Source: Shewanella sp. KT0246
GTDB taxonomy: Bacteria; Pseudomonadota; Gammaproteobacteria; Enterobacterales; Shewanellaceae
Assembly: GCF_019654955.1 (NCBI RefSeq)
Contig: NZ_BPEV01000019.1
Location: 1-64,000, forward strand
Reading direction: 5' to 3'
Length of the DNA: 64,000 nucleotides
Shown here: positions 19,780 through 58,474 of the stretch, piece by piece
Layout: every line of letters begins with the position of its first letter
Numbering within the stretch: the first letter of the stretch is position 1
Notes under the pieces: model-generated
What the model was told of the DNA's origin: nothing
Databases searched by the model: none
The model's input: only the letters and a program-made list of their open reading frames with translations
Made by a program: the position numbers and the translations under genes

Positions 19780-20223
19780 ATGATTTCTAAATGGGCAAAA
19801 CGTTTCTTTCAGATGGCTGAACTTGTTGGTTCATGGAGTAAAGACCCGTCAACACAAGTGGGCGCGGTGATCACTAAACATAATCGTATCGTGTCTGTCG
19901 GGTTTAATGGCTATCCCCATGGGATTTCTGATAGCGCAGAAACTGACGATCGTGAAATGAAGTTATTGAAAACCTTGCATGCAGAAGAGAATGCCATCTT
20001 ATTCGCTAAGCGCGATTTAGGCGATTGTGATATCTGGGTTACCCATTTTCCTTGTCCTAACTGCGCCGCTAAAATCATTCAAACCGGTATTACGGGTGTG
20101 TATTGCCCAGAGCAAAGTGAGGACTTTTTATCTCGCTGGGGCGATAAGATTAAAGTCAGCCAAGATATGTTTTTGCAAGCAGGAGTAAAAGTGAACTGGC
20201 TGCCGGTTCATGAGCTTGAATAG
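19780..20223 (+). CDS. Deoxycytidylate deaminase-like zinc protein
   Basis: A 147-residue member of the cytidine/deoxycytidylate deaminase family. The zinc site is complete: His67 with catalytic Glu69 in HAEENA, and Cys92 and Cys95 in PCPNC. The start SWAKRFFQMAELVGSWSKDPSTQVGAVI is typical of ComEB/dCMP deaminases, which produce dUMP for thymidylate synthesis. A GGTGACAGG ribosome site lies upstream. It is a single gene ended by a terminator. A related nucleoside substrate cannot be excluded. Confidence 0.87.
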   Translation: MISKWAKRFFQMAELVGSWSKDPSTQVGAVITKHNRIVSVGFNGYPHGISDSAETDDREMKLLKTLHAEENAILFAKRDLGDCDIWVTHFPCPNCAAKIIQTGITGVYCPEQSEDFLSRWGDKIKVSQDMFLQAGVKVNWLPVHELE

Positions 20224-20593
20224 CATTGAGAGTTGCCTTTTTTCTTTTCATATCTCTGTGTGATTAAGCCGACGTTAAGTCGGTTTTTTTATATCTGCGT
20301 TTTATTTCAACATTCTATTCCGCACTAAATTAGTCAACTAATACTCCTAAAGGGATATTCATTAAGCCAATGCTTATTCTTTCTGCTTTTTATTCCTCAT
20401 CATATATTTCACTTTTGTTTCAATTGTTTAAGGTTTAAATGTTGCAAAGTTAGCTCAAGCATTAGCCATTGTTAAATTTATATTCTGTGATTCATGCCCT
20501 TTAATTTGTCTTCTAAATGCTCATTTACAAATGTATATATATAAATAAGCGTATATGCAGTTGATGATATGTAGTGTGTTCAAGGGGATTGAG
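20224..20593 (+). promoter_or_regulatory. Leader and promoter region of arrAB
   Basis: A 370-bp AT-rich region between the deaminase gene and arrA. After the terminator at 20266-20290 it holds no gene I can support. A run of TATATATAAATAAG and GTATATGC at about 20533-20555 and the alternating AT-rich content suggest promoter and operator sequences, but I cannot assign an exact -35/-10 pair, a clear CRP site (TGTGA-N6-TCACA) or a clear FNR site. Confidence 0.45.
20266..20290 (+). terminator. Terminator after the deaminase gene
   Basis: CCGAC (20269-20273) pairs with GTCGG (20279-20283), extended by A-T and G-T pairs, followed by seven Ts. It isolates arrAB from the upstream gene. Confidence 0.8.
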
Positions 20594-23158
20594 ATGAGCA
20601 ATAAAATAGATACAGGTAGAAGAGCGTTGTTAAAAACCTCTGCAGCAGGTGCTGCACTATCTGGAATAGGTTGTAGTAGTTCGAGTTCAATTGAACCTGT
20701 AATGAAGGGAATTGAGCAAGAGCTACCAAGTAAAGATACAGTTACTGGTACTGGTCAGTGGGTAGGTACAACGTGTCAAGGATGTACTTCTTGGTGTGCC
20801 AAGCAAGTTTATGTGATGGACGGGCGTGCGATTAAATTAAGAGGTAACGTTAATTCTAAAGTGCACGGTGAAGCAAGTTGCCCAAGGCAGCACCTTAGTC
20901 TTCAGCAAGTCTATGATCCAGATAGAGTGAAAACACCGCTTATGCGAACAAACCCTAAGAAAGGCAAAGAGCATGATCCTATGTTCAAACCGATTTCTTG
21001 GGATGAAGCTTTAGATTTACTGGCTGATAAAATTCTAGCGCTTCGAGCTGCCGACGAATCTCATAAATATGCTTTATTGCGTGGTCGCTATTCCCATATC
21101 AATGAGCTGATGTATAAACATCTTACTCAAATGATTGGTTCTCCAAATAATATTTCCCACAGTTCAATATGTGCAGAAGCCCATAAAATGGGGCCATACT
21201 ACCAAGATGGTAACTGGGGTTATAACCAGTATGATGTTGAAAATGCTAAATTTATTCTTTCATTTGGTGCCGACCCCATTGCGAGTAATCGCCAAGTTTC
21301 CTATTACTCAAAAACTTGGGGCGCAGCGCTAGATAGCGCAAAAGTGGTCGTAGTAGACCCTCGTTTATCGGTATCAGCCAGTAAGGCTCACAAATGGATC
21401 CCAATCGAGCCGTCACAAGACAGTGTATTAGCGTTAGCCATTGCTCATGTGGCATTAACTGAAGGTCTGTGGCATAAGCCATTTGTGGGGGACTTTGCTA
21501 ATAAGCAAAACCAGTTCATTGCCGGTCAAGAAGTCGATGCTGCAGCATTTAATGAGTTACATACTCATGGCGTGGTTGATTGGTGGAACATTAGCTTAAA
21601 AGATTACACTCCTGAATGGGCAGAGTCTGTCACTAATATTCCTGCTGATACCATTATCAATATTGCGCGCGATATGGGCAAAGCTGCACCTGCAGTACAA
21701 GTGTGGACATCACGTGGGGCTGTGATGCATACCCGCGGAACTTACACTTCACTTGCTTGTCATGCATTAAATGGCTTATTCGGTGGCATTGATAATAAAG
21801 GGGGAGTATTCCCTGCTAATAAAATCAAACTAAATAAGAAGTTCCCTGACTCTAAGCCGTACCTTGATAACGTGGCTAAGAAAGGGGTTAAGCACCCTAA
21901 AATTGATCAACGTGGCACCTTAGCTTTCCCTGCGCTTAAAAAAGGTAAACCAGGCGGTGGTGTTGTCACCAGCAATACGCCTAATGGCATGCTAAGTGCT
22001 GATCCGTATGACATTAAAGTCATGTTGGCATACTTCAACAACTTTAATTTCTCATCACCTGAAGGCCAGCGTTGGAATGAAGCGTTAAGTCAGCTTGATT
22101 TCATGGCACACGTGACCACCAATATTTCAGAGTTTAGTTGGTTTGCCGACATCATTTTACCTGCTAACCACCACATGTTTGAAAAGTGGGGCGTATTAGA
22201 TTCAATTGGTAATGGCGTGCATCAAGTGTCAGTGCAACAGCCTTCAATTGATCGCATATGGAACACTAAAGAAGATGAGTCAGAAATCCCATATTTATTA
22301 GCTAAAAAGTTAGCTGATAAAGGTTTTGATATGCCTTGGCGCTATATCAATGAACAGTTACTTGATCCTGAAACTAAGCAGCCAGCTAAGAGCGAAAAAG
22401 ACTTTGGTGAGCTACTAGTGAAATACGTGACTTCGCCATTATGGACTGACGGTGCTGCCAAATATGGCGATAACATGACGTCTTGGAAAGAGTTCACCGA
22501 TAAAGGCGTGTGGAACAGCCATCCTTATGAACTGAAAAGCCGCTGGGGGAAATTTAAAACTGAGACCCATAAGTTTGAGTTTTATAGTAAAACCCTTGAG
22601 AAAGCCCTTAATAAACATGCGAAGAACCATCATGTCAGTGTTGATGAGGTCATGGAGGCATGTGATTACCAAGCCCGAGGTAAAGTTGCTTTCGTACCGC
22701 ATTACGAAGACCCATACCGCTTCGGTGATGAAAAACTGTATCCATTATTGCTGGTGGATCAAAAGGCGCGATTAAGTAAAGAAGGTCGCTCAGCCAATAC
22801 ACCATGGTTCTATGAATTTAAAGATCTTGATCCTGGAGATATTGCCAATGAAGACACGGCGAAAATCAACCCTATTGACGGTGAAAAACTGGGGCTTAAA
22901 ACCGGTGACAAGATTGTCATATCGAGCCCTGTAGGTGAGTTAACTTGCACAGTTGCGTTATGGGAAGGAGTAAGACCTGGCACTGTAGCAAAATGTTTTG
23001 GCCAAGGACACTGGGCTTATGGTCGCCATGCGAGCAAGACATTTGGTAAAGAGGCGAGAGGTGGTTCAAACAACGACATTATCGCTGATAGATATGACAG
23101 ATTAAGTGGCGCATCAGCGTACTATGGCCATGTTCGTATTAACGTAAAAAAAGCCTGA
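20594..23158 (+). CDS. arrA: Respiratory arsenate reductase, catalytic molybdopterin subunit ArrA
   Basis: ArrA reduces arsenate to arsenite in the periplasm during anaerobic respiration. With the ATG at 20594 (AAGGGG 6 bases upstream) it has 854 residues, the length I recall for the Shewanella ANA-3 enzyme. It has a Tat signal (Arg9-Arg10 in TGRRALLK), a 4Fe-4S site (Cys61, Cys64, Cys68, Cys96), Mo ligand Cys193, and Arg165, Tyr166, His189, Lys198 and Tyr210, matching by number the active-site residues I remember from the ANA-3 structure. The RGRY sequence before the Cys supports ArrA rather than the oxidase ArxA or polysulfide/thiosulfate reductases. arrB follows after 11 bp. Confidence 0.88.
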   Translation: MSNKIDTGRRALLKTSAAGAALSGIGCSSSSSIEPVMKGIEQELPSKDTVTGTGQWVGTTCQGCTSWCAKQVYVMDGRAIKLRGNVNSKVHGEASCPRQHLSLQQVYDPDRVKTPLMRTNPKKGKEHDPMFKPISWDEALDLLADKILALRAADESHKYALLRGRYSHINELMYKHLTQMIGSPNNISHSSICAEAHKMGPYYQDGNWGYNQYDVENAKFILSFGADPIASNRQVSYYSKTWGAALDSAKVVVVDPRLSVSASKAHKWIPIEPSQDSVLALAIAHVALTEGLWHKPFVGDFANKQNQFIAGQEVDAAAFNELHTHGVVDWWNISLKDYTPEWAESVTNIPADTIINIARDMGKAAPAVQVWTSRGAVMHTRGTYTSLACHALNGLFGGIDNKGGVFPANKIKLNKKFPDSKPYLDNVAKKGVKHPKIDQRGTLAFPALKKGKPGGGVVTSNTPNGMLSADPYDIKVMLAYFNNFNFSSPEGQRWNEALSQLDFMAHVTTNISEFSWFADIILPANHHMFEKWGVLDSIGNGVHQVSVQQPSIDRIWNTKEDESEIPYLLAKKLADKGFDMPWRYINEQLLDPETKQPAKSEKDFGELLVKYVTSPLWTDGAAKYGDNMTSWKEFTDKGVWNSHPYELKSRWGKFKTETHKFEFYSKTLEKALNKHAKNHHVSVDEVMEACDYQARGKVAFVPHYEDPYRFGDEKLYPLLLVDQKARLSKEGRSANTPWFYEFKDLDPGDIANEDTAKINPIDGEKLGLKTGDKIVISSPVGELTCTVALWEGVRPGTVAKCFGQGHWAYGRHASKTFGKEARGGSNNDIIADRYDRLSGASAYYGHVRINVKKA

Positions 23159-23169
23159 GGTAAGAGATT

Positions 23170-23874
23170 ATGAGACTCGGAATGGTAATTGACCTACAAA
23201 AATGTGTAGGTTGCGGTGGCTGTGATTTAGCCTGTAAAACCGAAAATAACACTGCTGATGGCGTTAAATGGTCGGATCATATAACTAAAACGGAAGGACG
23301 TTTTCCTGACGTGCAATACAGTTACATACCAACCATGTGTAACCATTGTACCAATGCTGCTTGTGTTAACGTGTGCCCTACAGGTGCAATGTATAAAGAC
23401 GAACGTGGATTAACGCTGCAAGATAATGATAAATGTATCGGTTGTAGAAAATGTGAGCGAGCTTGCCCTTATGGGGTCATTAGCTATAACAGACAAGAGC
23501 CTCATCGTGAGTGGCAAGATGATAAAGCTCTAGTGGCTGGCGCTACTGGATCTCCTCATGCTTTATTGAAAAAAGTAGACATTAAAACTTTTCCATATAT
23601 GAACCCTGAGCGTGGTGATACCTATCCTGAAGTTCGCCCAAGAAGAACCACTGAAAAATGTACCTTGTGTGATCATCGCTTAGATAAAGGGCTAAGTCCT
23701 GCATGTGTGACGGCTTGTCCATCTGGCGCGAGAGTATTTGGTGACTTTGACGATCCAAATAGTGAAGCGTCACGTTTGATTAAAATGAACAAGACTCAAC
23801 AGCTCAATCTAGATGCAGGTACGAAGCCGAATGTTTATTACATTCGCAGTTTTAACGTGAAAACTTTGTATTAA
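23170..23874 (+). CDS. arrB: Respiratory arsenate reductase, iron-sulfur subunit ArrB
   Basis: A 234-residue periplasmic ferredoxin-like subunit carrying electrons to ArrA. It has four cysteine groups for 4Fe-4S clusters: CVGCGGCDLAC near the start, CNHCTNAACVNVCP, CIGCRKCERACP, and CTLCDHRLDKGLSPACVTACP. It has no Tat signal and probably crosses the membrane bound to ArrA. Length and opening MRLGMVIDLQKCVGCGGC match ArrB as I remember it. GAGGTAAGAG precedes the ATG. No membrane anchor gene follows; in Shewanella, quinol electrons reach ArrAB through CymA. Confidence 0.88.
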   Translation: MRLGMVIDLQKCVGCGGCDLACKTENNTADGVKWSDHITKTEGRFPDVQYSYIPTMCNHCTNAACVNVCPTGAMYKDERGLTLQDNDKCIGCRKCERACPYGVISYNRQEPHREWQDDKALVAGATGSPHALLKKVDIKTFPYMNPERGDTYPEVRPRRTTEKCTLCDHRLDKGLSPACVTACPSGARVFGDFDDPNSEASRLIKMNKTQQLNLDAGTKPNVYYIRSFNVKTLY

Positions 23875-23923
23875 ACAGCATTACAAAATTAAGTTTTAGT
23901 GAGTCGTGTTGAAGATTAGAAAT

Positions 23924-23956
23924 GAGATGCAGGTGTTAAAGCTGCATCTCTTTTTT
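23924..23956 (+). terminator. Terminator after arrAB
   Basis: GAGATGCAG (23924-23932) pairs perfectly with CTGCATCTC (23942-23950) around a nine-base loop and is followed by six Ts. It closes the arrAB operon before the convergent arsR gene. Confidence 0.9.
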
Positions 23957-23983
23957 CTGCCTGAAATAGAATCGAAGGAATGG

Positions 23984-24355
23984 TTACTTAGTCGAACTGC
24001 CGCACAAGATTTTTGGGCGGTCCTGATTTTCGCCAACCAAATTAAGCTTGGATAACGCTTCTTCAATTAATGTTTTATTACCCGAATAAGTATCAGTCAA
24101 CACTTGTTTTGCCCATGCTGGTAACTGCTCATTAATCGAGTAATAAATCCACTGCCCTTGTCGTCGATTGACAACAATGCCTGCCGATTTTAATAAGGCT
24201 AGGTTACGAGATATCTTAGGTTGGATGACATCTAGAGCTTCAGTAAATTCACAGACACACAGCTCTTTCTCAACAACCAACAGCATCACAATAGATAAGC
24301 GAATAGGGTCTGTTAAGGATTTGAAAAGGCTAACTGGTTCGAACTGAGAAGTCAT
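23984..24355 (-). CDS. arsR: ArsR-family arsenite-responsive repressor
   Basis: A 123-residue winged helix repressor. The arsenite-sensing loop ELCVCEF carries Cys33 and Cys35, matching Cys32 and Cys34 of E. coli ArsR, while the third Cys of that protein is Thr38 here. The segments IQPKISRNLALLK and RQGQWIYYSINEQLPAWA also follow E. coli ArsR closely. It is convergent with arrAB, and no arsB, acr3 or arsC gene is adjacent. An additional C-terminal Cys118 is present. It likely represses itself and perhaps arrAB; in Shewanella ANA-3 an ArsR protein is reported to act on arr. Confidence 0.9.
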   Translation of the reverse strand: MTSQFEPVSLFKSLTDPIRLSIVMLLVVEKELCVCEFTEALDVIQPKISRNLALLKSAGIVVNRRQGQWIYYSINEQLPAWAKQVLTDTYSGNKTLIEEALSKLNLVGENQDRPKILCGSSTK

Positions 24356-24382
24356 GATTCATACTGATTGAAAATTTGGCCT

Positions 24383-24411
24383 ACCATATGTTTTTTACCT
24401 TGTTGAGTCAA
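24383..24411 (-). promoter_or_regulatory. Candidate arsR promoter with CATATG operator-like core
   Basis: Reading the minus strand, TTGACT (complement of 24406-24411) is 17 bases before TATGGT (complement of 24383-24388), a near-consensus sigma-70 pair 28 bp upstream of the arsR start. The spacer ends in a run of A followed by CATATG, resembling the CATATG-containing core of the E. coli ars operator as I remember it. The operator assignment is inference. Confidence 0.5.
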
Positions 24412-24512
24412 TTCTAATGCTGCTGAAAGTGAACCTCGATAAGTAAAGTTTAGTGATGAATTTTCGTCAGGGCAAATCAAGATAAAGTGGTAGTTTTGTA
24501 TTCATGCAGAAT

Positions 24513-24538
24513 AAAGCCGACATAATGTCGGCTTTTTA
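24513..24538. terminator. Hairpin with T-run between arsR and hutI
   Basis: AAAGCCGACA (24513-24522) pairs with TGTCGGCTTT (24526-24535) around the loop TAA. The T tract is best on the plus strand, but the nearest reading gene is hutI on the minus strand ending at 24560; symmetrical A and T ends allow it to terminate hutI. Confidence 0.75.
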
Positions 24539-24559: not shown

Positions 24560-25786
24560 TTACTGATGAACCACTACGCCATTTTTGACGACATCTTTAC
24601 ACGGATTCAAGCCGTATGAGTAGGCCAGTTGTGCAGGAGTGGTGATATCCCATAAGCAAAAATCTGCCTGCATTCCTTGAGCTAATACGCCGACACTGTG
24701 CTCTATCCCTAATGCTTTGGCTGCATTGGCAGTAATGCCTTTTAACGCTTCTTCTGGGGTTAATCTAAATAGGGTACATGCCATATTTAACATCAGCAGC
24801 GTTGAGCAAATAGGGGATGAACCTGGGTTAAAATCACTGGCAACCACAATCGGCACTTGATGTTGGCGTAATAAATCAATTGGCGGCATTTTGGTTTCAC
24901 GCAGGAAGTAATAAGCACCCGGTAATAAGGTGGCACAGGTGCCACTGGCGGCAAGGGCTTTAACGCCGTCTTCATCTAAGTATTCAATATGGTCAACGGA
25001 TTTTGCGCCAAGTTTGGCTGCCATTGCCGAGCCACCCATATTGGATAATTGCTCTGCATGGAGCTTGATCTCAAGACCTGCTTCTTTCGCGGCAGTTAAT
25101 ACTCGCTCAGTTTGGTCTAAGTTGAATGCTATATTTTCACAAAATACATCAGCGGCATCAGCTAAACCTTGATCAATCACAGTTGGCAGCATGTCATTAA
25201 TAACCACATCCACATAGGCATCAACATCGTCTTTGTATTCAGGTGGAATAGCGTGGGCACCTAAGAAAGTGGTTTTTACATCAACGTGGTGATGTTTACC
25301 TAACTCTCGGGCAACTTTCAATAACTTCACTTCTGTGTCGGTATCGAGGCCATAACCAGACTTTATTTCAACAGTGGTGACACCTTCTTTGGCTAAGGCA
25401 TTTAAGCGTTGGCGACCTAACTCAAATAATTCCGCTTCATCAGCTTCACGACAGGCTTTTACGGTAGAAATAATACCGCCGCCAGCGCGAGCGATGTCTT
25501 CATAGCTTGCGCCCTGTAAGCGCATTTCGAACTCATTGGCTCGGCTACCAGCAAAGATTAAATGGGTATGAGCATCAATAAGTCCTGGAGTTAACCAACC
25601 GCCTTTGCCACGGTAGACTGGAATATCAAATACATCGAATTCAGGTAAATCTTTTCGCTGTCCAATCCAAGCAATTTTGCCATCTTTTACTGCTAAAGCT
25701 GCGTCGGTAATTGCGCCGTAAGCGGCTGAATTAGTTGGATCCATTGTAGCGATATTGACGTCAATCCAAACATGATCCCACGACAT
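24560..25786 (-). CDS. hutI: Imidazolonepropionase
   Basis: HutI hydrolyses 4-imidazolone-5-propionate to N-formimino-L-glutamate, the third step of histidine degradation. The 408-residue amidohydrolase shows the metal motif [10 protein letters not shown] near residues 70-79, then [26 protein letters not shown] and [10 protein letters not shown], all characteristic of HutI. It is divergent from hutC and shares a 206-bp regulatory region with a HutC-type palindrome over its likely promoter. Confidence 0.97.
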
Positions 25787-41355: not shown

Positions 41356-41433
41356 TCTTTACTCGTTACAATGTACAAAACGAGTGCAGTTTATCACGGT
41401 AGCGCATATATCAATAATGGAGTTTGTTTAACT

Positions 41434-48329: not shown

Positions 48330-48346
48330 TTAAAGGAGAATATGTG

Positions 48347-51196
48347 ATGCGATTAACCCGCAAAACAGAGAAAGTTGAAGTAGCAGATAAACCTGCACTT
48401 GGACTGAATCGTCGCCAATTTTTGAAGTCAGCTACATTCGCTACAGGCGGTATTGCTGCGGCATCAATGCTTGGTGCTGGAATGATGCGTAAAGCAGAAG
48501 CCAAAGATGTACCACATGATGCACCAACTGAAGTAAAACGTACTATTTGTTCTCACTGTTCAGTGGGCTGTGGTATTTATGCTGAAGTACAAAATGGTGT
48601 TTGGACTGGTCAAGAGCCAGCATTCGATCATCCATTTAACGCTGGTGGCCACTGTGCAAAAGGTGCTGCATTACGTGAGCATGGTCATGGTGAAAAACGT
48701 CTTAAATACCCAATGAAGCTGGAAGGCGGAAAGTGGAAAAAACTTTCTTGGGAACAAGCGATTGAAGAGGTTGGCCAAAAAGCCTTAGATATCCGTCAAG
48801 AATCTGGTCCAGATTCAGTATTTTTCATGGGTAGTGCTAAGTTCTCTAACGAACAAGCTTATATGTACCGCAAATTAGCGGCAATGTGGGGCACGAACAA
48901 CGTCGACCACTCTGCACGTATTTGTCACTCTACCACTGTAGCCGGTGTTGCAAACACTTGGGGTTACGGTGCGCAAACGAACTCATTTAATGACATTCGT
49001 AAATCGAAAGCGATGATGTTCATCGGTTCGAACCCTTGTGAAGCTCACCCAGTTTCAATGCAACACATCCTTGAAGGTAAAGAGCGCGGCGCGAAAATTA
49101 TCGTAGTCGACCCTCGTTTCACCCGAACTGCAGCTAAGTCTGACGAGTTCGTGCATATTCGTCCTGGTACGGATATTCCTTACATTTATGGTTTGTTGTG
49201 GCATATTTTTGAAAACGGTTGGGAAGACCAAACTTTCATCGACCAACGTGTATACGGTATGGAACGTATCCGTGAGGAAGTGAAAAAGTGGAATCCTGCA
49301 GAAGTTGAGAATGTTGCCGGTGTACCTGAAAAGCAAATGCATCGTGTGGCTAAATTACTAGCTGAAACTAAACCAGGTACTGTGGTTTGGTGTATGGGTG
49401 GTACTCAGCATCACGTTGGTAATGCTAACACGCGTGCATACTGTATCCTGCAATTAGCCCTTGGTAACATGGGTGTTGAAGGTGGTGGTACTAACATTTT
49501 CCGTGGTCACGATAACGTTCAAGGTGCGACTGACTTTGGCTTATTATTCGATACATTACCTGGTTACTACGGCCTGAAAACAGGCTCTTGGAAACATTGG
49601 TGTAATGTGTGGGATCTTGAATATGACTGGGTTAAAAACCGTTTCGATCAAGAGCAACGTTTAGGTCAAGATCCTATGACCTCAACAGGTATCCCTTGTT
49701 CTCGTTGGCATGATGGTGTACTTGAAGACAAATCTAAGATTGCTCAGAAAGATAACATTCGCATGTCATTCTTCTGGGGCCAATCTGTAAACACTGAAAC
49801 TCGTGGTCGTGAAGTGCGTGAAGCATTGAACAAAATGGACACAGTAGTTGTTGTGGATCCTTTCCCAACAATGGCGGGTGTTATGCACGAGCGTACTGAT
49901 GGCGTTTACTTATTGCCAGCAGCAACTCAGTTTGAAACTTACGGTTCTGTATCGGCTTCAAACCGCTCACTACAGTGGCGTACACAGGTTATCGAACCAT
50001 TATTTGAGTCAAAAGCTGACCACATTATTATGTATAAGCTGGCGAAAAAATGGGGTATCGAAGGCGAATTCTGTAAACATATCAAAGTGAATGGTGATGA
50101 GCCGTTGATTGAAGATATGACTCGAGAGTTCAACAAAGGTATGTGGACCATTGGTTACACAGGCCAAAGCCCTGAGCGTTTGAAAATGCACCAAGAAAAC
50201 TGGGGCACGTTCGATATCGAGAGCTTAGAAGCACCAGGCGGCCCAGCTAAAGGTGAAACTTACGGTTTACCTTGGCCTTGTTGGGGCACACCAGAAAACA
50301 AACATCCAGGTACACAGATCCTTTATCGTACTGGACGTGAAGTTAAGTATGGTGGCGGTAACTTCCGTGCACGTTACGGTGTTGAGCATGAAGGTAATAA
50401 CATTCTTGCAGAAGGTTCTTACTCGAAAGGCAGTGAAATTCAAGACGGTTATCCTGAATTTACCGCAGACATGCTTAAGCAGCTTGGTTGGTGGGATGAT
50501 TTAACCGCTGAAGAAAAAGTTCACGCAGAAGGCAAAAACTGGAAAACAGATATTTCTGGTGGTATCCAACGCGTAGCGATTAATCACGGTTGTATCCCTT
50601 ACGGTAACGCGAAAGCGCGTGTTATTGTTTGGAACTTCCCAGATGATATCCCAATCCATCGCGAGCCTTTATATACCCCTCGTCGTGACTTAGTGTCTAA
50701 GTACCCAACCTACGAAGACCGTATGGTTGCACGTCTTCCTACTCTGTATAAGTCTATTCAAGATAAAGACTTTGCTAAAGACTTCCCATTAGCAGTCACA
50801 ACGGGTCGTTTAGTTGAGTACGAAGGTGGTGGTGAAGAAACGCGCTCAAATCCATGGCTTGCAGAATTACAGCAAGAAATGTTTATTGAGATTAACCCTG
50901 CTGATGCAGCAGATCGCGGCTTACGTGATGGTGATGACGTATTTGTTCACAGTCCAGAAGGCGCTAAAATCACAGTTAAAGCTATGGTGACTCCACGAGT
51001 CATTGCTGGTGAATGTTTCATGCCATACCACTTCGCGGGTGTTTTCGAAGGCAAGAGCCTAGAGAAGAGTTACCCAGAAGGAACGGTTCCTTATGTGATT
51101 GGTGAATCTGCCAATACCGTAATGACCTACGGTTATGATGTTGTGACTCAGATGCAAGAGACTAAGTCTAGCTTGTGTCAGATCAGCAAAGCCTAA
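48347..51196 (+). CDS. fdhA: Formate dehydrogenase catalytic subunit, cysteine type (copy 1)
   Basis: Oxidises formate to CO2 at a molybdopterin site in the periplasm. The 949-residue protein has a Tat signal (NRRQFLKSA), a 4Fe-4S site (CSHCSVGCGIY then C), and Mo ligand Cys193 in SARICHSTT, where E. coli FdnG has selenocysteine. C-terminal molydopterin-dinucleotide domain is complete. Start at ATG 48347 with AAAGGAG; GTG 48344 is possible. Downstream fdhB and fdhC form the complex with FdhA. A second copy follows at 53957, with patches of near-identical DNA. Confidence 0.94.
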   Translation: MRLTRKTEKVEVADKPALGLNRRQFLKSATFATGGIAAASMLGAGMMRKAEAKDVPHDAPTEVKRTICSHCSVGCGIYAEVQNGVWTGQEPAFDHPFNAGGHCAKGAALREHGHGEKRLKYPMKLEGGKWKKLSWEQAIEEVGQKALDIRQESGPDSVFFMGSAKFSNEQAYMYRKLAAMWGTNNVDHSARICHSTTVAGVANTWGYGAQTNSFNDIRKSKAMMFIGSNPCEAHPVSMQHILEGKERGAKIIVVDPRFTRTAAKSDEFVHIRPGTDIPYIYGLLWHIFENGWEDQTFIDQRVYGMERIREEVKKWNPAEVENVAGVPEKQMHRVAKLLAETKPGTVVWCMGGTQHHVGNANTRAYCILQLALGNMGVEGGGTNIFRGHDNVQGATDFGLLFDTLPGYYGLKTGSWKHWCNVWDLEYDWVKNRFDQEQRLGQDPMTSTGIPCSRWHDGVLEDKSKIAQKDNIRMSFFWGQSVNTETRGREVREALNKMDTVVVVDPFPTMAGVMHERTDGVYLLPAATQFETYGSVSASNRSLQWRTQVIEPLFESKADHIIMYKLAKKWGIEGEFCKHIKVNGDEPLIEDMTREFNKGMWTIGYTGQSPERLKMHQENWGTFDIESLEAPGGPAKGETYGLPWPCWGTPENKHPGTQILYRTGREVKYGGGNFRARYGVEHEGNNILAEGSYSKGSEIQDGYPEFTADMLKQLGWWDDLTAEEKVHAEGKNWKTDISGGIQRVAINHGCIPYGNAKARVIVWNFPDDIPIHREPLYTPRRDLVSKYPTYEDRMVARLPTLYKSIQDKDFAKDFPLAVTTGRLVEYEGGGEETRSNPWLAELQQEMFIEINPADAADRGLRDGDDVFVHSPEGAKITVKAMVTPRVIAGECFMPYHFAGVFEGKSLEKSYPEGTVPYVIGESANTVMTYGYDVVTQMQETKSSLCQISKA

Positions 51197-51222
51197 TTAA
51201 CTTGATGAGGAGATAAGCCACT

Positions 51223-51819
51223 ATGGCAGTCATGAAATTTTTGTGTGACACAAAACGCTGCATCGAGTGTAACGGTTGCGTCACAGCTTGTAAGAACGAA
51301 AACGATTCCGCTCTAGAGTGGGGAATTCAACGTCGACGTGTGGTTACTATCAATGATGGTGAACCAGGCGAAGCATCAATCTCAGTTGCATGTATGCACT
51401 GTACAGATGCACCTTGTATGGCCGTTTGTCCTGCAGATTGTTTTTATCAAACTGACGACGGCATTGTGCTGCATGACAAAGATACTTGTATCGGTTGTGG
51501 TTACTGTTTTTATGCTTGTCCTTTCGGTGCTCCACAGTTCCCGAAAAAGACTGCATACGGTAGCCGAGGCAAAATGGATAAGTGTACTTTCTGTGCCGGT
51601 GGCCCAGAAGAGAACCATTCAGAAGCTGAACGCCTGAAATACGGTGCGAACCGTATTGCTGAAGGTAAATTACCTATGTGTGCAGAGCTTTGTTCAACCA
51701 AAGCATTGTTAGCTGGTGATGCTGAGATTGTATCGACCATTTATCGCGAGCGTATGGCGAAACGTGGTAACCCGAATACCATTTGGGGCTATGATCCTAA
51801 AACAGGTGATTTGGTATAG
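51223..51819 (+). CDS. fdhB: Formate dehydrogenase iron-sulfur subunit (copy 1)
   Basis: A 198-residue four-cluster ferredoxin subunit passing electrons from FdhA to FdhC. Cysteine groups are CDTKRCIECNGCVTAC, CMHCTDAPCMAVCP, CIGCGYCFYACP and CTFCAGGP, with a final CAELCS. There is no Tat signal, so it is likely exported with FdhA. It lies 26 bp after fdhA with a GAGGAG site. It is nearly the same as the second FdhB (56841-57410), but nine residues longer at the C-terminus. Confidence 0.93.
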   Translation: MAVMKFLCDTKRCIECNGCVTACKNENDSALEWGIQRRRVVTINDGEPGEASISVACMHCTDAPCMAVCPADCFYQTDDGIVLHDKDTCIGCGYCFYACPFGAPQFPKKTAYGSRGKMDKCTFCAGGPEENHSEAERLKYGANRIAEGKLPMCAELCSTKALLAGDAEIVSTIYRERMAKRGNPNTIWGYDPKTGDLV

Positions 51820-51869
51820 GCAGTGCAAAAGGTTGCGGGCTTTGGTCCGTAACCAAGCAAGGAGTGACA

Positions 51870-52880
51870 ATGTTGAACAAACAGTTAAACAAATCACTGC
51901 GTAGCTTGTTTGCTCTGTTGGTTCTGGTGATGGGGTTAGGGTTTTCAACCACAACTTTAGCGGCAGATGAACAATCAAGTAAGCAGCAGGCAGGGAAAGA
52001 AAACCCGGCAGATTTATGGCGAGCAGTTAAGGCTGGAGACAGCGGTTTTACGACAGCTCAAGGTATTGAACCAGGTGTATTGATTAATGTTGGCGGCAAC
52101 GAAGGTCGATTAATTAGGGATAACTACATTACTCCAGGAGTAGCACTTGCTCTGGTTGGTGTATTTGGTGCCTTTTTAATATTTTACTTTGTTAATGGCC
52201 CGGCAAAATTAAGCAAAGGCTTCTCTGGCAAGATGGTCGAGCGTTGGTCAAAAGCAGACATTTGGCTACATTGGATTATGGCCATTGCTTGTCTAACCTT
52301 AATGCTGACAGGCTTAGTGATCATACTGGGTAAATTTGCAATTCAACCGTACGTAAGCGACAGCATTTGGGCGGGAGTGATTGCCTTTTGTAAGTTTGTA
52401 CATGATTGGGTTGGTCCGGTATTTATCGTATCTTGGTTACTGTGTATCGTTAAGTGGATGCCACTTCAAACCATTAAAATGTATGACATCAAATGGTTCT
52501 TAGTGGTGGGTGGTTACATCAACTTTGGTCCATTTAAAGGTAAGCACCCTGATAGCGGTTTTGCTAACGCGGGTGAAAAAATGTGGTTCTGGACATTAGT
52601 CTTGTTCGGTCTATTTATCAGTGTATCTGGCATGATGTTAGTGTTACCTGGTTTGGATTTACCACGTGAAGCCTCGATGGTTGCATTACTCGTTCACGGT
52701 GTGAGCGCTGCTATTTTGATTGCATTTACGATTGTGCACATCTGGATGGCAACGGCATTAAGTGAAGGCGGTATGGAATCTATGGTATCTGGGTATTGTG
52801 ATGAAAACTGGGCAATCCAGCATCATAATCTTTGGTACGATGAAATCAAAGCCAATGGTACGTTGAAATACCAAAAGTAA
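51870..52880 (+). CDS. fdhC: Formate dehydrogenase cytochrome b subunit (copy 1)
   Basis: A 336-residue membrane cytochrome b that passes formate electrons to quinone. It has an N-terminal signal-like segment (to about residue 31), one helix near residues 88-108, and four core helices. The haem-ligating His residues are expected in ADIWLHWIMAI, FVHDWVGP and IAFTIVHIWMA. ATG 51870 is preceded by AAGGAG, with GTG 51864 less likely. A strong terminator follows, so the first cassette ends here. Confidence 0.9.
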   Translation: MLNKQLNKSLRSLFALLVLVMGLGFSTTTLAADEQSSKQQAGKENPADLWRAVKAGDSGFTTAQGIEPGVLINVGGNEGRLIRDNYITPGVALALVGVFGAFLIFYFVNGPAKLSKGFSGKMVERWSKADIWLHWIMAIACLTLMLTGLVIILGKFAIQPYVSDSIWAGVIAFCKFVHDWVGPVFIVSWLLCIVKWMPLQTIKMYDIKWFLVVGGYINFGPFKGKHPDSGFANAGEKMWFWTLVLFGLFISVSGMMLVLPGLDLPREASMVALLVHGVSAAILIAFTIVHIWMATALSEGGMESMVSGYCDENWAIQHHNLWYDEIKANGTLKYQK

Positions 52881-52910
52881 ATTAGCTAAAGCCTTTAACG
52901 TTTAAGCAGT

Positions 52911-52955
52911 AAAAAACACCTCAACTGAGATTATCTCGTTGGGGTGTTTTTATTT
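52911..52955 (+). terminator. Terminator after fdhC copy 1
   Basis: AAAAAACACCTCAAC (52911-52925) pairs with GTTGGGGTGTTTTT (52938-52951), with one G-T pair, closing an inner hairpin and running into a T tract. It separates the two formate dehydrogenase cassettes. Confidence 0.9.
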
Positions 52956-53741
52956 GGAAGCTTCTTTTTTGTGGAAGTGTCGATAAGCTTTCAAGTACAG
53001 CTAATGGTGAGTATTACTGATTAAGTTTTTACTTTGTAAACAGACTGTCTTTCAACGGCCCATATTCATGAGCAAAAGACTCCCGATAAATATGCTTTGG
53101 GCATATCTCTCATTGACTTTATTTCAAAAAGTGACCTTTATCTAGATTGATGTTTTTCATCAGAAGTGCAGGCACAAAAATATTGTTGTTTCTGGCTTTG
53201 AACTAAGACATATAACCTCTCTCGATTTAGCTTCATTTAAACAAGAACGTCATTTGATTGTTAATGGATTCATTAAAGGTAATTAACCCTATTCTCTGTT
53301 TATTTTTAATAGCTAAAAGTACTATTCTATCTAGTTTTAAGCACTAAATGCTATATGTAAATAGGAAGAGTTATCACTACCAATAAAGTATGACAAACAG
53401 TGCTAACTTGATGAGATGTTAAGGTTTTTAACAATCGTTTCCTCCCTGCTTCAAGGCCCGTTCGAGGACTATTGAGAGATACCCATTTCAAAGTATGACT
53501 CAGTTAACGCTTTGTCGATTTTGTGTCGTTTTTTGGAATATGAACAGGGGTCAGATCAATTTATTTCAACTTATCTCTCTATATATTAGCCCGGTAAATT
53601 TTGGAACATTATTCATTTAGAAGTGTTTTTACCTTTTCGGTCTACTTTCATTAACTTGTTGTTAACAACTGTTTTGAAAAGTCGAAAAGGCCTATGAGGG
53701 CATCAACCAAAGAGTTGATGTGATTTAAACCGGGAGTAAAG
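52956..53741. other. 786-bp noncoding region between fdh cassettes
   Basis: AT-rich, with no supported gene. Visible signals are a GGGGTCAGATC motif (53547-53557) like those found beside REP-associated transposase genes, a perfect palindrome GTTGTTAACAAC (53658-53669) and a hairpin just before the second fdhX (53701-53720). The promoter of the second cassette should be here. No sigma-54 site like the one at 44214 was found. Confidence 0.55.
53701..53720 (+). promoter_or_regulatory. Leader hairpin before fdhX copy 2
   Basis: CATCAAC (53701-53707) pairs with GTTGATG (53714-53720), six-base loop, 21 bp before the start at 53742 and just upstream of the GGGAG ribosome site. It is simpler than the leader of the first cassette and not obviously related. 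Confidence 0.4.
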
Positions 53742-53939
53742 ATGAAGAAGCAACAGCCTGATCTGAACCGCAGATCTTTGCTGAAAGCCATCACCGTAGG
53801 TAGCGCTGCTACTGCAGCTATCGCTGTATCAGGTGTGAGTGTGGCTCAAGCAACCGAGAGTAACGTTAGCAGCAAAAATGCTAAAGGTTACAAAGAAACT
53901 GCGCATATTCGTAGCTACTACGATAGCTTACGCGGATAA
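53742..53939 (+). CDS. Formate-dehydrogenase-associated Tat-signal small protein (copy 2)
   Basis: A 65-residue Tat-signal protein, LNRRSLLKAITVGSAATAAIA then a short mature part ending KGYKETAHIRSYYDSLRG. It shares the Y[KR]ET.H[IV]RSYYD motif with copy 1 at 48129, so both copies are real and conserved. CGGGAG precedes the ATG. It is followed by the second fdhA after 17 bp. Role as for copy 1; unproven. Confidence 0.87.
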   Translation: MKKQQPDLNRRSLLKAITVGSAATAAIAVSGVSVAQATESNVSSKNAKGYKETAHIRSYYDSLRG

Positions 53940-53956
53940 TTCAGGAGAAATAAGCG

Positions 53957-56812
53957 ATGAAGTTAACTCGCAAGTCTACCGCAGCTCCTAAAGCTGCTAC
54001 CAAGTCGCTCGGTATCAACCGTCGTCAATTTATGAAGAATGCAGGTATTGCAACTGGTGGTATCGCCGCTGCTTCATTAATGGGCACAGGTATGATGCGT
54101 AGAGCTGAAGCTCATGATGTACCGCATGATGCACCTACTGAAATCAAACGCACTGTATGTTCTGCATGTGCTGTTGGTTGTGGTTTATACGCAGAAGTAC
54201 AAAATGGTGTTTGGACTGGTCAAGAACCAGCTTTCGATCACCCATTTAATGCTGGTGGCCACTGTGCTAAAGGTGCTGCATTACGTGAACATGGTCACGG
54301 TGAAAAGCGTCTTAAGTACCCAATGAAACTTGTTGATGGCAAGTGGAAAAAATTATCTTGGGAACAAGCTTACAACGAAGTCGGCGACAAAATGCTTGAT
54401 ATTCGTGAAGAGTCAGGTCCTGATTCAGTTTACTTTATGGGTAGTGCTAAGTTCTCGAACGAAGGCTGCTACATGTATCGTAAATTTGCGGCAATGTGGG
54501 GCACGAACAACGTCGATCACTCTGCACGTATTTGTCACTCTACCACGGTAGCTGGTGTTGCTAACACTTGGGGCTACGGTGCGCAAACTAACTCTTTCAA
54601 TGATATCCAGAATGCAAATGCAATCTTCTTCATCGGTGCAAACCCGGCTGAAGCGCATCCAGTTGCAATGCAGCATATCTTAATCGCGAAAGAGAAAAAC
54701 AACGCTAAGATTATCGTTGTTGACCCTCGTTTCTCTCGTACTGCAGCGCACGCTGACCTACATTGTGGTCTTCGTCCTGGTACTGATATTCCATTCATCT
54801 ACGGTATGCTTTGGCACATCTTCGAAAATGGTTGGGAAGACAAAACGTTCATCCAAGAACGTGTTTTCGAAATGGAAACAATTCGCGAAGAAGTGAAAAA
54901 GTTCCCACCGAAAGAAGTTGCTGACATCACTGGTTGTAGCGAAGAAGAAGTTTACCAAGCTGCGAAAATGATGGCAGATAACCGTCCAGGTACTGTTGTT
55001 TGGTGTATGGGTGGTACTCAGCATCACGTCGGTAATGCGAACACTCGTGCTTACTGTATCCTTCAATTAGCACTAGGTAACATGGGTGTTAAAGGCGGCG
55101 GAACAAATATTTTCCGTGGTCACGATAACGTTCAAGGCGCAACTGACTTAGGTTTGTTATTCGATAACTTACCTGGTTACTACGGCCTGACTTCTGGCGC
55201 ATGGGATCACTGGACAAACGTTTGGGACCTAGATAGAGATTGGGTTTCTAGCCGTTTTGACCAAAATGAATACCTTGGCCGTGTTCCAATGAACACTCCG
55301 GGTATCCCTTGTTCTCGCTGGCATGATGGTGTTTTAGAAACGCCTGAAAAATTAGCTCAAAAAGACCGTGTACGTATGGGCTTCTTCTGGGGTCAATCAG
55401 TTAACACTGAAACTCGTCAAGATGATGTTCGTGAAGCACTAGACAAGATGGACACAGTAGTTGTTGTGGATCCTTTCCCAACAATGGCTGGTGTTATGCA
55501 CCGTCGTCAAAACGGCGTGTACTTGCTACCAGCTTGTACTCAGTTTGAAACTGAAGGTTCAGTATCTAACTCTGGTCGTTCACAACAATGGCGTGAAAAG
55601 ATTGTTGAGCCATTATTTGAATCAAAAACTGACCTTGAGATTATGTATCGTCTATCTCAAAAGCTTGGTTTTGCTGATGAGTACACTAAGCGTATCGCTA
55701 AAGATGCAAATGATGTACTAGTCATTGAAGACATTACTCGCGAAATTAACCGCGGTATGTGGACTATTGGTATGTCAGGTCAAAGCCCTGAGCGTATCAA
55801 AGAACACACTCAAAACTGGGGCACGTTCAGCAACAAGACTCTTGAAGCTGCTGGCGGACCTGCTAAAGGCGAAACTTACGGTTTACCTTGGCCTTGTTGG
55901 GGTACTCCGGAGCAGAAGCATCCAGGTACTCAAATTCTTTACAATACGCATAAGCACGTGCTTGACGGCGGCGGTAACTTCCGTGCCCGTTACGGTATTG
56001 AATACAAAGGTAAAAACTTGTTAGCGGAAGGCAGCTTCTCTAAAGGCGCTGAAATCACTGACGGTTACCCAGAGTTCACTGCAGACATGCTTAAACAGCT
56101 TGGCTGGTTTGACGAACTGACTGCTGAAGAAAAAGTTCACGCAGAAGGTAAAAACTGGAAAACTGATATCTCTGGTGGTATCCAACGCGTTGCAATGAAG
56201 CACGGCTGTATCCCTTACGGTAATGCTAAAGCTCGTTGTATTGTATGGACATTCCCTGATGAAGTACCTGTTCACCGTGAGCCGTTATACACGCCTCGTC
56301 GTGACTTAGTATCTAAGTACCCAACGTACGCTGATATGCAAGTACATCGTTTACCAACACTGTACAAGTCAATTCAAGACAATGACAACTCTGCTAAGTA
56401 CCCACTTGCATTAACGTCAGGCCGTCTGGTTGAGTACGAAGGTGGTGGTGAAGAGTCTCGTTCTAACCCTTGGTTAGCAGAACTTCAACAAGAAATGTTT
56501 GTTGAAATTAACCCTGCAGATGCAGCTGATCGTGGTCTACGTGATGGCGATACAGTTTGGTTAGAAGGTGCTGAAGGCGGACGCATCAAGATTAAAGCAA
56601 TGGTCACTCCACGCGTTAAGCCTGGTGTAACTTGGATGCCATACCACTTCGCGGGTGAAATGCACGGCGAAAGCCTTGCACCTAACTATCCAGAAGGCAC
56701 TGTACCTTACGTATTAGGTGAATCAGCTAACACTGCACTGACCTATGGTTATGACCCTGTAACACAAATGCAGGAAACCAAAGCGTCGCTTTGTCAAATT
56801 GAAAAAGCGTAA
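53957..56812 (+). CDS. fdhA: Formate dehydrogenase catalytic subunit, cysteine type (copy 2)
   Basis: A 951-residue paralogue of the first FdhA with the same Tat signal type (NRRQFMKNA), 4Fe-4S motif (CSACAVGCGLY) and Mo ligand Cys193 in SARICHSTT. AGGAGA precedes the ATG. Long stretches are identical in DNA to copy 1 even at silent sites (for example around 55450-55490 and 54500-54555), pointing to gene conversion or recent duplication, while other parts diverge. The two may respond to different conditions; no assembly genes are duplicated. Confidence 0.94.
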   Translation: MKLTRKSTAAPKAATKSLGINRRQFMKNAGIATGGIAAASLMGTGMMRRAEAHDVPHDAPTEIKRTVCSACAVGCGLYAEVQNGVWTGQEPAFDHPFNAGGHCAKGAALREHGHGEKRLKYPMKLVDGKWKKLSWEQAYNEVGDKMLDIREESGPDSVYFMGSAKFSNEGCYMYRKFAAMWGTNNVDHSARICHSTTVAGVANTWGYGAQTNSFNDIQNANAIFFIGANPAEAHPVAMQHILIAKEKNNAKIIVVDPRFSRTAAHADLHCGLRPGTDIPFIYGMLWHIFENGWEDKTFIQERVFEMETIREEVKKFPPKEVADITGCSEEEVYQAAKMMADNRPGTVVWCMGGTQHHVGNANTRAYCILQLALGNMGVKGGGTNIFRGHDNVQGATDLGLLFDNLPGYYGLTSGAWDHWTNVWDLDRDWVSSRFDQNEYLGRVPMNTPGIPCSRWHDGVLETPEKLAQKDRVRMGFFWGQSVNTETRQDDVREALDKMDTVVVVDPFPTMAGVMHRRQNGVYLLPACTQFETEGSVSNSGRSQQWREKIVEPLFESKTDLEIMYRLSQKLGFADEYTKRIAKDANDVLVIEDITREINRGMWTIGMSGQSPERIKEHTQNWGTFSNKTLEAAGGPAKGETYGLPWPCWGTPEQKHPGTQILYNTHKHVLDGGGNFRARYGIEYKGKNLLAEGSFSKGAEITDGYPEFTADMLKQLGWFDELTAEEKVHAEGKNWKTDISGGIQRVAMKHGCIPYGNAKARCIVWTFPDEVPVHREPLYTPRRDLVSKYPTYADMQVHRLPTLYKSIQDNDNSAKYPLALTSGRLVEYEGGGEESRSNPWLAELQQEMFVEINPADAADRGLRDGDTVWLEGAEGGRIKIKAMVTPRVKPGVTWMPYHFAGEMHGESLAPNYPEGTVPYVLGESANTALTYGYDPVTQMQETKASLCQIEKA

Positions 56813-56840
56813 TTGCAGCTTAAGCTAGGAGAATTGCCAA

Positions 56841-57410
56841 ATGGCTACAATGAAATTTTTATGTGATACCAAGCGCTGCATTGAATGTAATGGTTGTGTC
56901 ACAGCTTGTAAAAACGAAAACGACTCTGCTCTAGAGTGGGGTATTCAACGTCGTCGCGTAGTAACCATCAATGATGGTGTTAAAGGCGAAGCGTCTATCT
57001 CTGTTGCTTGTATGCACTGTAGTGATGCACCTTGTATGGCTGTATGTCCTGCAGATTGTTTCTACAAAACAGAAGACGGTATCGTTCTTCACGACAAAGA
57101 TACTTGTATCGGTTGTGGTTACTGTTTATATGCATGTCCGTTCGGAGCTCCTCAGTTCCCTCAGTCTGGTGCTTTTGGTAGCCGTGGCAAAATGGACAAG
57201 TGTACTTTCTGTGCCGGTGGCCCTGAAGAAGATCATTCACACGCTGAGCGTGAGAAGTACGGTGCAAACCGTGTCGCTGAAGGTAAGCTTCCAATGTGTG
57301 CTGAGCTTTGTGCAACTAAGTCGCTACTTGCTGGTGATGCAGAAATCGTTTCTGCCATCTTCCGTGAGCGTGTTGCTTATCGCGGTGCTAACAAAGGTGT
57401 TTGGGGTTAA
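56841..57410 (+). CDS. fdhB: Formate dehydrogenase iron-sulfur subunit (copy 2)
   Basis: A 189-residue subunit with the same four cysteine groups as copy 1: CDTKRCIECNGCVTAC, CMHCSDAPCMAVCP, CIGCGYCLYACP and CTFCAGGP. The first 50 residues are almost identical to copy 1. The C-terminus is nine residues shorter, ending NKGVWG. AGGAGAA lies upstream. It sits between fdhA and fdhC copy 2. Confidence 0.93.
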   Translation: MATMKFLCDTKRCIECNGCVTACKNENDSALEWGIQRRRVVTINDGVKGEASISVACMHCSDAPCMAVCPADCFYKTEDGIVLHDKDTCIGCGYCLYACPFGAPQFPQSGAFGSRGKMDKCTFCAGGPEEDHSHAEREKYGANRVAEGKLPMCAELCATKSLLAGDAEIVSAIFRERVAYRGANKGVWG

Positions 57411-57484
57411 TCTCCGCCTAAGTTAGTCAGCTTAGCTATGATGCCTGAGGCAACTCGGGCATCGAATAGCATAGAGGATGTATT

Positions 57485-58474
57485 ATGAACAAGTGGTTCA
57501 AACAAATTGGCGTTGTTATCGCACTGATGTTCAGTGTTATGACATTCGCACACGCTAGTGGAAGTGGTGAAGAATCTCTTACCGTTCAAGATGGCAATGC
57601 GCAATTATGGGCACAGCTTAAAGACGGTGTAGAGGGACGTACCACATCTACCAGTGAGTTCCATGCACAACCAATCAATACTTATGATTTACGTGTATTC
57701 GAACTTCGTAGTGACTTATTAGCGCCAGCTTTAATGGCTGCGTTATTTGGCATGATCATCATCTTCTTACTGTTTATTAAAATAAACGGTATTTCAAAAT
57801 TACACGGTGGTTTCACCGGTAAGATGGTGTATCGCTGGTCTAAATTTGATGTATCAATTCACTGGTTAGGTGCGATTCCTTGCTTGTTATTGATTCTGAC
57901 AGGTTTAGTACTACTTGCTGGTCGTTTCTTCTTCCAACCGTATATCGGTGAAGGAATGTGGGCTGGTATGGTAAATGCTTCTAAAGTTATCCATGATTAT
58001 ATGGCTATCCCATTCATGTTGGGTTGGGCGTTAATGGTAGTACTTTGGGCTAAAAACCAAATGCCAAAAATGTACGACATTAAATGGATGATGGTTGTTG
58101 GTGGTTACATTAACTTCGGTCCATTTAAAGGTAAGCACCCTGACGCTGGCTTTGCTAACGCAGGTGAAAAACTATGGTTCTGGGCTTTCGCTCTATTCGG
58201 TCTATTCATCTCAGTATCAGGAATGTTATTACTATTCCCGAACTTATTTGAACCAAGCCGTAACCTAAGCTTACTTGCTCTTATTGTTCACTCAGTAAGT
58301 GCTATCGTTATCTGTGCTTTCTCTATCGTACATATCTTCATGGCAACAGCTATGTCAGAAGGTGGTATGGATTGTATGGTGTCTGGCTACTGTGATGAGC
58401 AGTGGGCTAAGCAGCATCACAACCTTTGGTATGACGAAATCAAAGAAAAAGGCGAGCTTAAATATAAAGACTAA
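57485..58474 (+). CDS. fdhC: Formate dehydrogenase cytochrome b subunit (copy 2)
   Basis: A 329-residue cytochrome b paralogue: signal-like N-terminus (to about residue 25, ending AHA), helix near 79-98 and four core helices. His ligands are expected in FDVSIHWLGAI, VIHDYMAIPF and FSIVHIFMATAM. GAGGATGT precedes the ATG. The sequence around KMYDIKWMMVVGGYINFGPFKGKHPDAGFANAG (given in part) closely matches copy 1. A terminator follows, closing the second cassette. Confidence 0.9.
   Translation: MNKWFKQIGVVIALMFSVMTFAHASGSGEESLTVQDGNAQLWAQLKDGVEGRTTSTSEFHAQPINTYDLRVFELRSDLLAPALMAALFGMIIIFLLFIKINGISKLHGGFTGKMVYRWSKFDVSIHWLGAIPCLLLILTGLVLLAGRFFFQPYIGEGMWAGMVNASKVIHDYMAIPFMLGWALMVVLWAKNQMPKMYDIKWMMVVGGYINFGPFKGKHPDAGFANAGEKLWFWAFALFGLFISVSGMLLLFPNLFEPSRNLSLLALIVHSVSAIVICAFSIVHIFMATAMSEGGMDCMVSGYCDEQWAKQHHNLWYDEIKEKGELKYKD

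Follow-up and report, generated by a model that had tools for sequence, protein, structure and literature searches.

Can a pair of arsenate respiration genes stand with a single arsR gene for company, or is such a locus the moved or reduced form of a larger arsenic island? The question is raised by positions 20594 to 24355 of a 64,000-nucleotide stretch of Shewanella sp. KT0246 (contig NZ_BPEV01000019.1, positions 1 to 64,000 of the forward strand; hereafter the window). There, a first-pass annotation made from the sequence alone had proposed respiratory arsenate reductase genes, arrA and arrB, followed by a convergent arsR. The genome of the window (G000) comprises 4.85 Mb in 183 contigs, the contig of the window being C19. 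On the genomic evidence we consider it quite likely that this trio is a functional, self-contained arsenate-respiration unit that would be repressed by its ArsR, supplied with electrons by CymA and served by efflux proteins from other loci.

The arrAB genes encode a predicted respiratory arsenate reductase

The arrA gene (20594–23158, plus strand) encodes the catalytic molybdopterin subunit of 854 amino acids with a twin-arginine N-terminus; the length is counted from the twin-arginine start, and with initiation at an alternative upstream ATG (20555) the protein would have 867 amino acids. It is followed by arrB (23170–23874, plus strand), which encodes an iron-sulfur subunit of 234 amino acids with 16 cysteines. 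The reading frames of arrA, arrB and arsR are all intact. ArrA passed the cut-off of the ArrA equivalog model NF041714 of NCBIfam (1707.5 bits, cut-off 1600) and ArrB that of NF041715 (463.1 bits, cut-off 450). The closest solved protein to the window ArrA is the ArrA of entries 6cz7–6cza, to which residues 43–853 were aligned, and the ArrB of the same entries (6cz7_B) aligned across its entire length. Both predicted lengths agree with those of ArrA and ArrB from strain ANA-3, as had been stated in the first-pass annotation, and the 16 cysteines of ArrB occupy the same positions in the two strains. Comparison with the ANA-3 chromosome also verified that R165, Y166, H189, C193, K198 and Y210 carry identical numbers in the two ArrA proteins. 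The assignment of these six residues to the ANA-3 active site is that of the first-pass annotation.

The phylogeny proposed with the first-pass annotation was built from 18 rows, without TtrA. Thirteen ArrA rows including the window fell on one side of a branch with support 96/99, and two proteins of Arx layout and two PsrA/PhsA-like proteins (one of them L044 from genome G011) fell outside it. A further row, L003 from contig C58 of G000, is a molybdoenzyme on a very long branch. The Arx label is based on gene order (the B'-A-B-C-D layout), and the records name no arx gene. Grouping of the window ArrA with the two Arx-layout rows was rejected (p 0.00012). All 12 other ArrA rows have the six residues listed above; positions 166 and 198 are Y and K in all 13 ArrA rows, whereas in the two Arx-layout rows position 166 is W and position 198 is V or E. 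Together, the family models, the tree and the residues support the predicted activity of the window ArrAB as a respiratory arsenate reductase, as first proposed.

The arrA gene is under strong purifying selection. Against G105, dN was 0.0226 and dS 0.966, and against strain TC10 the values were 0.0234 and 1.017, so that dN/dS was about 0.02 in both comparisons with close relatives. Five more distant rows were also compared, but their dS values were saturated and could not be used.

The arrA-arrB-arsR trio occupies four kinds of neighbourhood

With presence defined as E below 1e-200, ArrA was found in 16 of 129 Shewanella genomes. Ten of these (group A) carry an ArrA 81–100% identical to that of the window and form one ArrA subclade; the other six (group B), ANA-3 included, carry an ArrA 71–74% identical to it. 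In every group-A genome (10/10), arrA, arrB and a convergent arsR occur in that order, and the neighbourhoods of this trio are of four kinds. It is flanked by a deaminase gene and hutI in G000, G105, G140 (= TC10) and G023; beside genes for a 2-hydroxyacid dehydrogenase and a ketoacyl synthase in S. pneumatophori and 1CM18E; beside an SMP-30-like gene in S. waksmanii; and beside a DUF1223 gene or its neighbour in S. kaireitica, G121 (5.5 kb seen) and G019. Comparison by blastn with five loci at other sites defined a shared unit of about 3.9 kb with the approximate extent 20464–24422. The main pieces start at 20464–20536 and end at 24346–24422, and a weak extra piece from G019 reaches 20455. 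The homology shared with these five loci thus begins at the promoter of arrA and ends near that of arsR. The trio would behave as one piece that has settled at four chromosomal sites within its ArrA subclade.

The first-pass annotation had suggested that the locus was either moved or reduced. The first alternative gains support in that the same trio occupies four kinds of neighbourhood in its subclade. The second is not supported, given the dN/dS of arrA and the trio form common to all ten group-A genomes. The accompanying statement that in characterised strains arr genes usually sit beside arsenite efflux and arsC genes did not hold generally here. Among 25 arr loci surveyed over up to 10 kb on each side (some flanks were shorter), 9 had at least one of Acr3, ArsB, ArsC, ArsA and ArsJ and 16 had no match to any. 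The survey queries were Shewanella proteins, so distant relatives may be missed, above all at the Gemmatimonadota locus.

No transposase or integrase domain was found among the 10 neighbouring proteins tested with models. Target-site duplications or terminal repeats were considered and rejected: no long repeats bracket the unit, and the only likeness between its flanks is a pair of GCCGAC hairpins (see below). A search of the plasmid collection returned nothing at E 1e-100; with the threshold relaxed to 1e-20 it gave 55 records, of which the best was 32% identical. This negative is weak because pSheB, which bears arr genes according to PMC6429310, also failed to show up. Neither RNA families nor tRNAs were found in the window, so there is no tRNA attachment site in it.

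Putative ArsR operators lie upstream of arrA

The arsR gene (23984–24355, minus strand) is convergent with arrB and encodes an ArsR-family repressor of 123 amino acids with the ELCVC motif, as first annotated. The protein passed the NCBIfam model NF007528 (110.5 bits, cut-off 97) and matched Pfam HTH_5; it has a winged-helix domain and a CxC metalloid site, and binding of As(III) is predicted. Trio ArsRs from the nine other group-A genomes are 65–85% identical to it, and it represents a separate type, with 43–50% identity to the island and detoxification ArsRs compared. A consensus scan placed a promoter-like site, TTGACT-17-TATGGT, upstream of arsR (24383–24411, minus strand), in a region where promoter-like sites are no more frequent than in shuffles.

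An operator matrix describing a 36-base site with three half-sites at fixed spacing was derived from nine detoxification arsR promoters and no arr promoter. The nine come from 13 detoxification-type arsR loci (L226–L238). Those omitted were L229, the ANA-3 island arsR, which has no evident upstream site; L230, a near copy of G032; and L237 and L238 of G140, in which no open reading frame with the LCVC motif was found. Two overlapping matches (20523–20558 and 20539–20574) define a putative ArsR operator region at 20523–20574 (plus strand), and these are the top two of all positions in the 64 kb (13.9 and 13.3). The top-scoring site lay upstream of arrA in all nine group-A loci scanned (9/9), by a narrow margin in the window, and began 48–111 bp before the start. 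Among eight other arr loci, the site upstream of arrA ranked first in six, third in one and fourth in ANA-3, where better-scoring sites occur elsewhere within the arsenic island. For all 16 arrA promoters (10 from group A and 6 others), the scores were reached by 0 to 2 of 300 shuffles. These matches suggest that the trio ArsR may share its binding language with the detoxification ArsRs of the genus.

None of the 10 trio-arsR promoters gave an operator match (66 to 248 of 300 shuffles scored as well). An autoregulatory operator upstream of the repressor's own gene is common in the ArsR family, although it is not required. From the matches upstream of arrA and the lack of any upstream of arsR, we read the trio ArsR as a probable repressor of arrAB that As(III) would release, acting through these putative operators and without regulating itself. 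Nor did the matrix find an operator match in the acr3 promoters of G000 and TC10, and the idea of an operator shared with acr3 of the window genome was dropped. All 10 group-A arrA promoters share an unchanged CRP-like TGTGA; its other half is variable, and for this reason we make no claim for CRP.

A probable electron donor and detoxification genes are encoded elsewhere in the genome

G000 encodes a NapC/NirT-family protein of 187 amino acids that contains four CxxCH motifs and shares 85% identity with its ANA-3 counterpart; from its sequence and length we take it to be CymA. A homologue of the expected electron donor is thus present, and it would be coupled to ArrAB. According to PMC12481199, which names ArrC and CymA, the anchoring subunits of arr operons vary. 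Separately, a tandem array of 197-bp units follows cymA on contig C11 of G000 (L211 1399–3113); it comprises 6.1 copies if the end of the gene itself is included, and every unit contains the last codons of cymA and a terminator-like hairpin. TC10 has three further copies after cymA (L212, at a contig end), and none were reported in G105.

Queries for Acr3, ArsB, ArsC, ArsA, ArsJ and ArsR (phmmer, 10594–33155) matched only the trio ArsR, in keeping with the description of arsR as the sole arsenic company of arrAB. The genome search that had been called for was run with Acr3, ArsB and ArsC on 18 genome handles, which represent 15 distinct genomes (each of the pairs G032/G062, G022/G063 and G029/G066 is a single genome), the Acr3 search being made without G105 and G121. 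Acr3 exceeded the cut-off in 16 of the 18 handles. In G000, acr3 lies at C22:3729–4718 (450 bits, cut-off 282.8) and an arsC (TIGR00014) at C51 (141 bits, cut-off 106). ArsB was found in 5 of the 18 handles, with no match in G000. Contig C3 of G000 carries arsR, an arsenic-type GAPDH gene (565 bits, cut-off 450) and arsJ (626 bits, cut-off 400) in a row, and ArsJ was found in every one of the 11 genomes searched for it, namely ANA-3 and the ten group-A genomes. The expectation that detoxification genes lie elsewhere was thus borne out. At the G000 acr3 locus (L076 3230–5415), whose type is shared with TC10 and not with G019, acr3 is followed by an ABM-domain gene.

These data are consistent with the following mechanism. 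ArrAB, exported by the twin-arginine route, would receive electrons from the quinol pool through CymA and use them in the periplasm to reduce arsenate to arsenite. The convergent arsR would be expressed constantly from its own unregulated promoter, and ArsR would sit on the operators just upstream of arrA and repress. Binding of As(III) to its cysteine pair would release ArsR from the operators and turn respiration on, and detoxification by Acr3, GAPDH-ArsJ and ArsC would be supplied by the other loci.

Several observations weigh against this model. The operator score of 13.9 in the window is far under those of the training sites (30.8–41.1), an unrelated third site at 41428 scores 12.9 in the same window, and the arrA promoter of the window is A+T-rich. 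The trio ArsR has only two cysteines of the three-cysteine ArsR site. The G000 Acr3 is 96% identical to that of TC10 and 32% identical to that of G019, and its gene is preceded by a small ArsR-family gene that has no CxC pair. With a chance site scoring 12.9, the operator evidence from the window alone is thin and is carried by recurrence across loci, a recurrence qualified by the shared descent of the ten group-A arrA promoters.

The deaminase-hutI gap is empty or differently occupied in relatives

To the left of the unit lies a gene for a ComEB-like (deoxy)cytidylate deaminase (19780–20223, plus strand; below family cut-offs) and to the right a hutI-like amidohydrolase gene (24560–25786, minus strand), followed by what are presumably hutC, hutU and hutH; the hut names were assigned from gene order. 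The annotated neighbourhood of hut and unrelated genes was confirmed in this deaminase gene and the hut genes. The corresponding gap is empty in four relatives, measuring 97 bp in G031, 114 bp in G028, 87 bp in G074 and 70 bp in G035. In G035, hutI is split into two reading frames (L158 1595–2859). In G105, a DNA/RNA non-specific endonuclease gene lies between the deaminase gene and arrA (L164 6969–7805).

Terminator-like GCCGAC hairpins lie after the deaminase gene (20266–20286) and before hutI (24513–24535), and the exact pattern occurs at just these two places in the 64 kb. It was present in 7 of 256 loci compared, all of them the same places of the window and G031. The empty site of G031 has one such hairpin, and among these loci only the window has one on both sides. 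The paired hairpins would fit either insertion beside them or excision between them. G140, which groups as sister to G031 by rpoB, has no such hairpins, and for this reason we take the pair as a hint only.

Among the matches listed, six relatives (G094, G137, G134, G034, G008 and G020) have about 4.1 kb in the gap, containing genes for a mono-haem cytochrome, a DUF3373 protein and an octaheme cytochrome. Family models were applied to the G137 proteins, and the other five genomes were assigned by BLAST; the G137 octaheme protein scored 624 bits against the model for octaheme tetrathionate reductases (cut-off 375). The loci are L159, L160, L163, L166, L167 and L168, the genes of L166–L168 being the best matches of L159, L160 and L163. 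The DUF3373 reading frame is split in G020. From coordinates, G073 and G099 have a gap of similar size (about 4.1 kb), and G142 and G092, among the matches listed, have one or two other genes there. The deaminase-hutI gap is thus one slot for two respiratory modules, arr or the octaheme-cytochrome set.

Elsewhere in the window, 48344–58474 holds two consecutive formate dehydrogenase-like operons with large, iron-sulfur and cytochrome b-like subunits, and both large subunits are distant relatives of ArrA.

Two possible histories for the distribution of the trio

The history of the unit was addressed with an rpoB tree of 29 genomes that included five of the six group-B genomes; the sixth, G120, was excluded on account of an rpoB split in two. 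The first history, which we hold only tentatively at a little under even likelihood, is that the trio was passed horizontally among Shewanella lineages as a 3.9 kb unit with nothing else attached, and that it entered the chromosome at four sites. Group A forms one ArrA clade (100/100), and rpoB rejects its carriers as a clade against the five group-B carriers (p 9e-6), although this rejection could also stem from later entry of group B. The patchiness of arrA (16/129) and the empty sites in G031, G028, G074 and G035 also favour transfer, as do near relatives lacking arrA, such as G145 within the G107/G121 group and G031 beside G140. However, the conflict between ArrA and rpoB inside group A is weak: the rpoB grouping was rejected by ArrA at p 0.036 with protein and not with DNA (p 0.13). 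ArrA has moreover diverged about as much as HutI in four pairs (81–86% and 82–83% identity to the window, respectively, in G019, G023, G032 and G022), and the 10 neighbouring proteins tested gave no integrase or transposase domain.

The second history, for which we would stop just short of even confidence, holds that the group-A arrAB-arsR is ancestral in the genus, was often lost and was relocated within chromosomes, group B (the ANA-3 type) being a later transfer. The near-congruent group-A trees and the core-like divergence speak for it. It needs, however, the trio to have been lost from most of the 129 genomes and relocated at least three times. Moreover, ArrA and rpoB disagree among the ten group-A genomes on the placement of G032/G149, which rpoB strongly places with G019/G107/G121, rejecting the ArrA grouping at p 0.00025.

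It is very improbable that an ars-arr island of the ANA-3 type decayed or was reduced to leave this locus as a remnant. The lack of ars efflux genes near the trio would fit such a remnant, but the dN/dS of about 0.02, the intact reading frames, the same trio in 10 genomes and the separate type of the trio ArsR all argue against it. Least probable of all is that the enzyme acts as an arsenite oxidase like ArxA (the anaerobic arsenite oxidase) or on another oxyanion: ArxA belongs to the same molybdoenzyme superfamily, and ArrA-type enzymes can run in reverse in vitro, but Y166 and K198 are those of ArrA, the Arx-layout proteins lie outside the ArrA clade, and the gene neighbours are not of Arx layout.

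Discussion

The self-contained arsenate-respiration unit favoured above resembles the ANA-3 arrAB (6cz7) in its enzyme: ArrA is 73% identical and ArrB has the same length and cysteine pattern. An ArsR-operator-like site likewise lies upstream of the ANA-3 arrA. Unlike in ANA-3, where a divergent arsDABC lies beside arrA and genes for ArsR and ArsJ lie on the other side, the arsR of the window unit is convergent and of a different type, and the unit has no other arsenic gene adjoining and thus lacks the arsDABC or other efflux genes that characterise islands of the ANA-3 type. Ferrimonas and Paraferrimonas arr loci encode an ArrA 67–70% identical to that of the window. Four of the Ferrimonas loci (L020, L024, L025 and L027) are similar in giving no Acr3, ArsB, ArsC, ArsA or ArsJ match in the flanks examined, but in neither genus does a convergent arsR directly follow arrB.

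According to PMC6429310, arrAB lies next to arsDABC in ANA-3-like strains and on plasmid pSheB of Shewanella sp. O23S, and arr-ars co-localisation is common with a module structure that varies. Aeromonas sp. O23A has an ars plus arr module, as described in PMC5446998. These systems are similar in that an arrAB module occurs on different replicons or sites, but in both pSheB and O23A arr lies beside ars operons. Given these descriptions the enzyme is already known; what is new is its packaging as a trio with its own, seemingly non-autoregulated ArsR at several sites. No description of the trio was seen in the open-access literature searched, which is not proof of absence.

We tentatively propose, with rather less than full conviction and slightly below the halfway mark, that arrAB and a non-autoregulated respiratory ArsR, distinct from the detoxification ArsRs, form a 3.9 kb cassette with no further genes. 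Among Shewanella this cassette would have moved to a new chromosomal site three or more times with no mobile element to be recognised, and in one lineage it would share an intergenic slot with the octaheme set. Arsenate respiration would then be a plug-in module whose only connections to the host are CymA and an operator language held in common. The arrA gene is a tracking gene for environmental arsenic release, and annotation based on neighbourhood may doubt a stand-alone arr trio. Because the trio carries an As(III) sensor and no efflux gene, arsenate respiration may be gained or lost without a resistance island. The trio would also be a natural setting in which respiratory and detoxification control by ArsR can be cleanly told apart.

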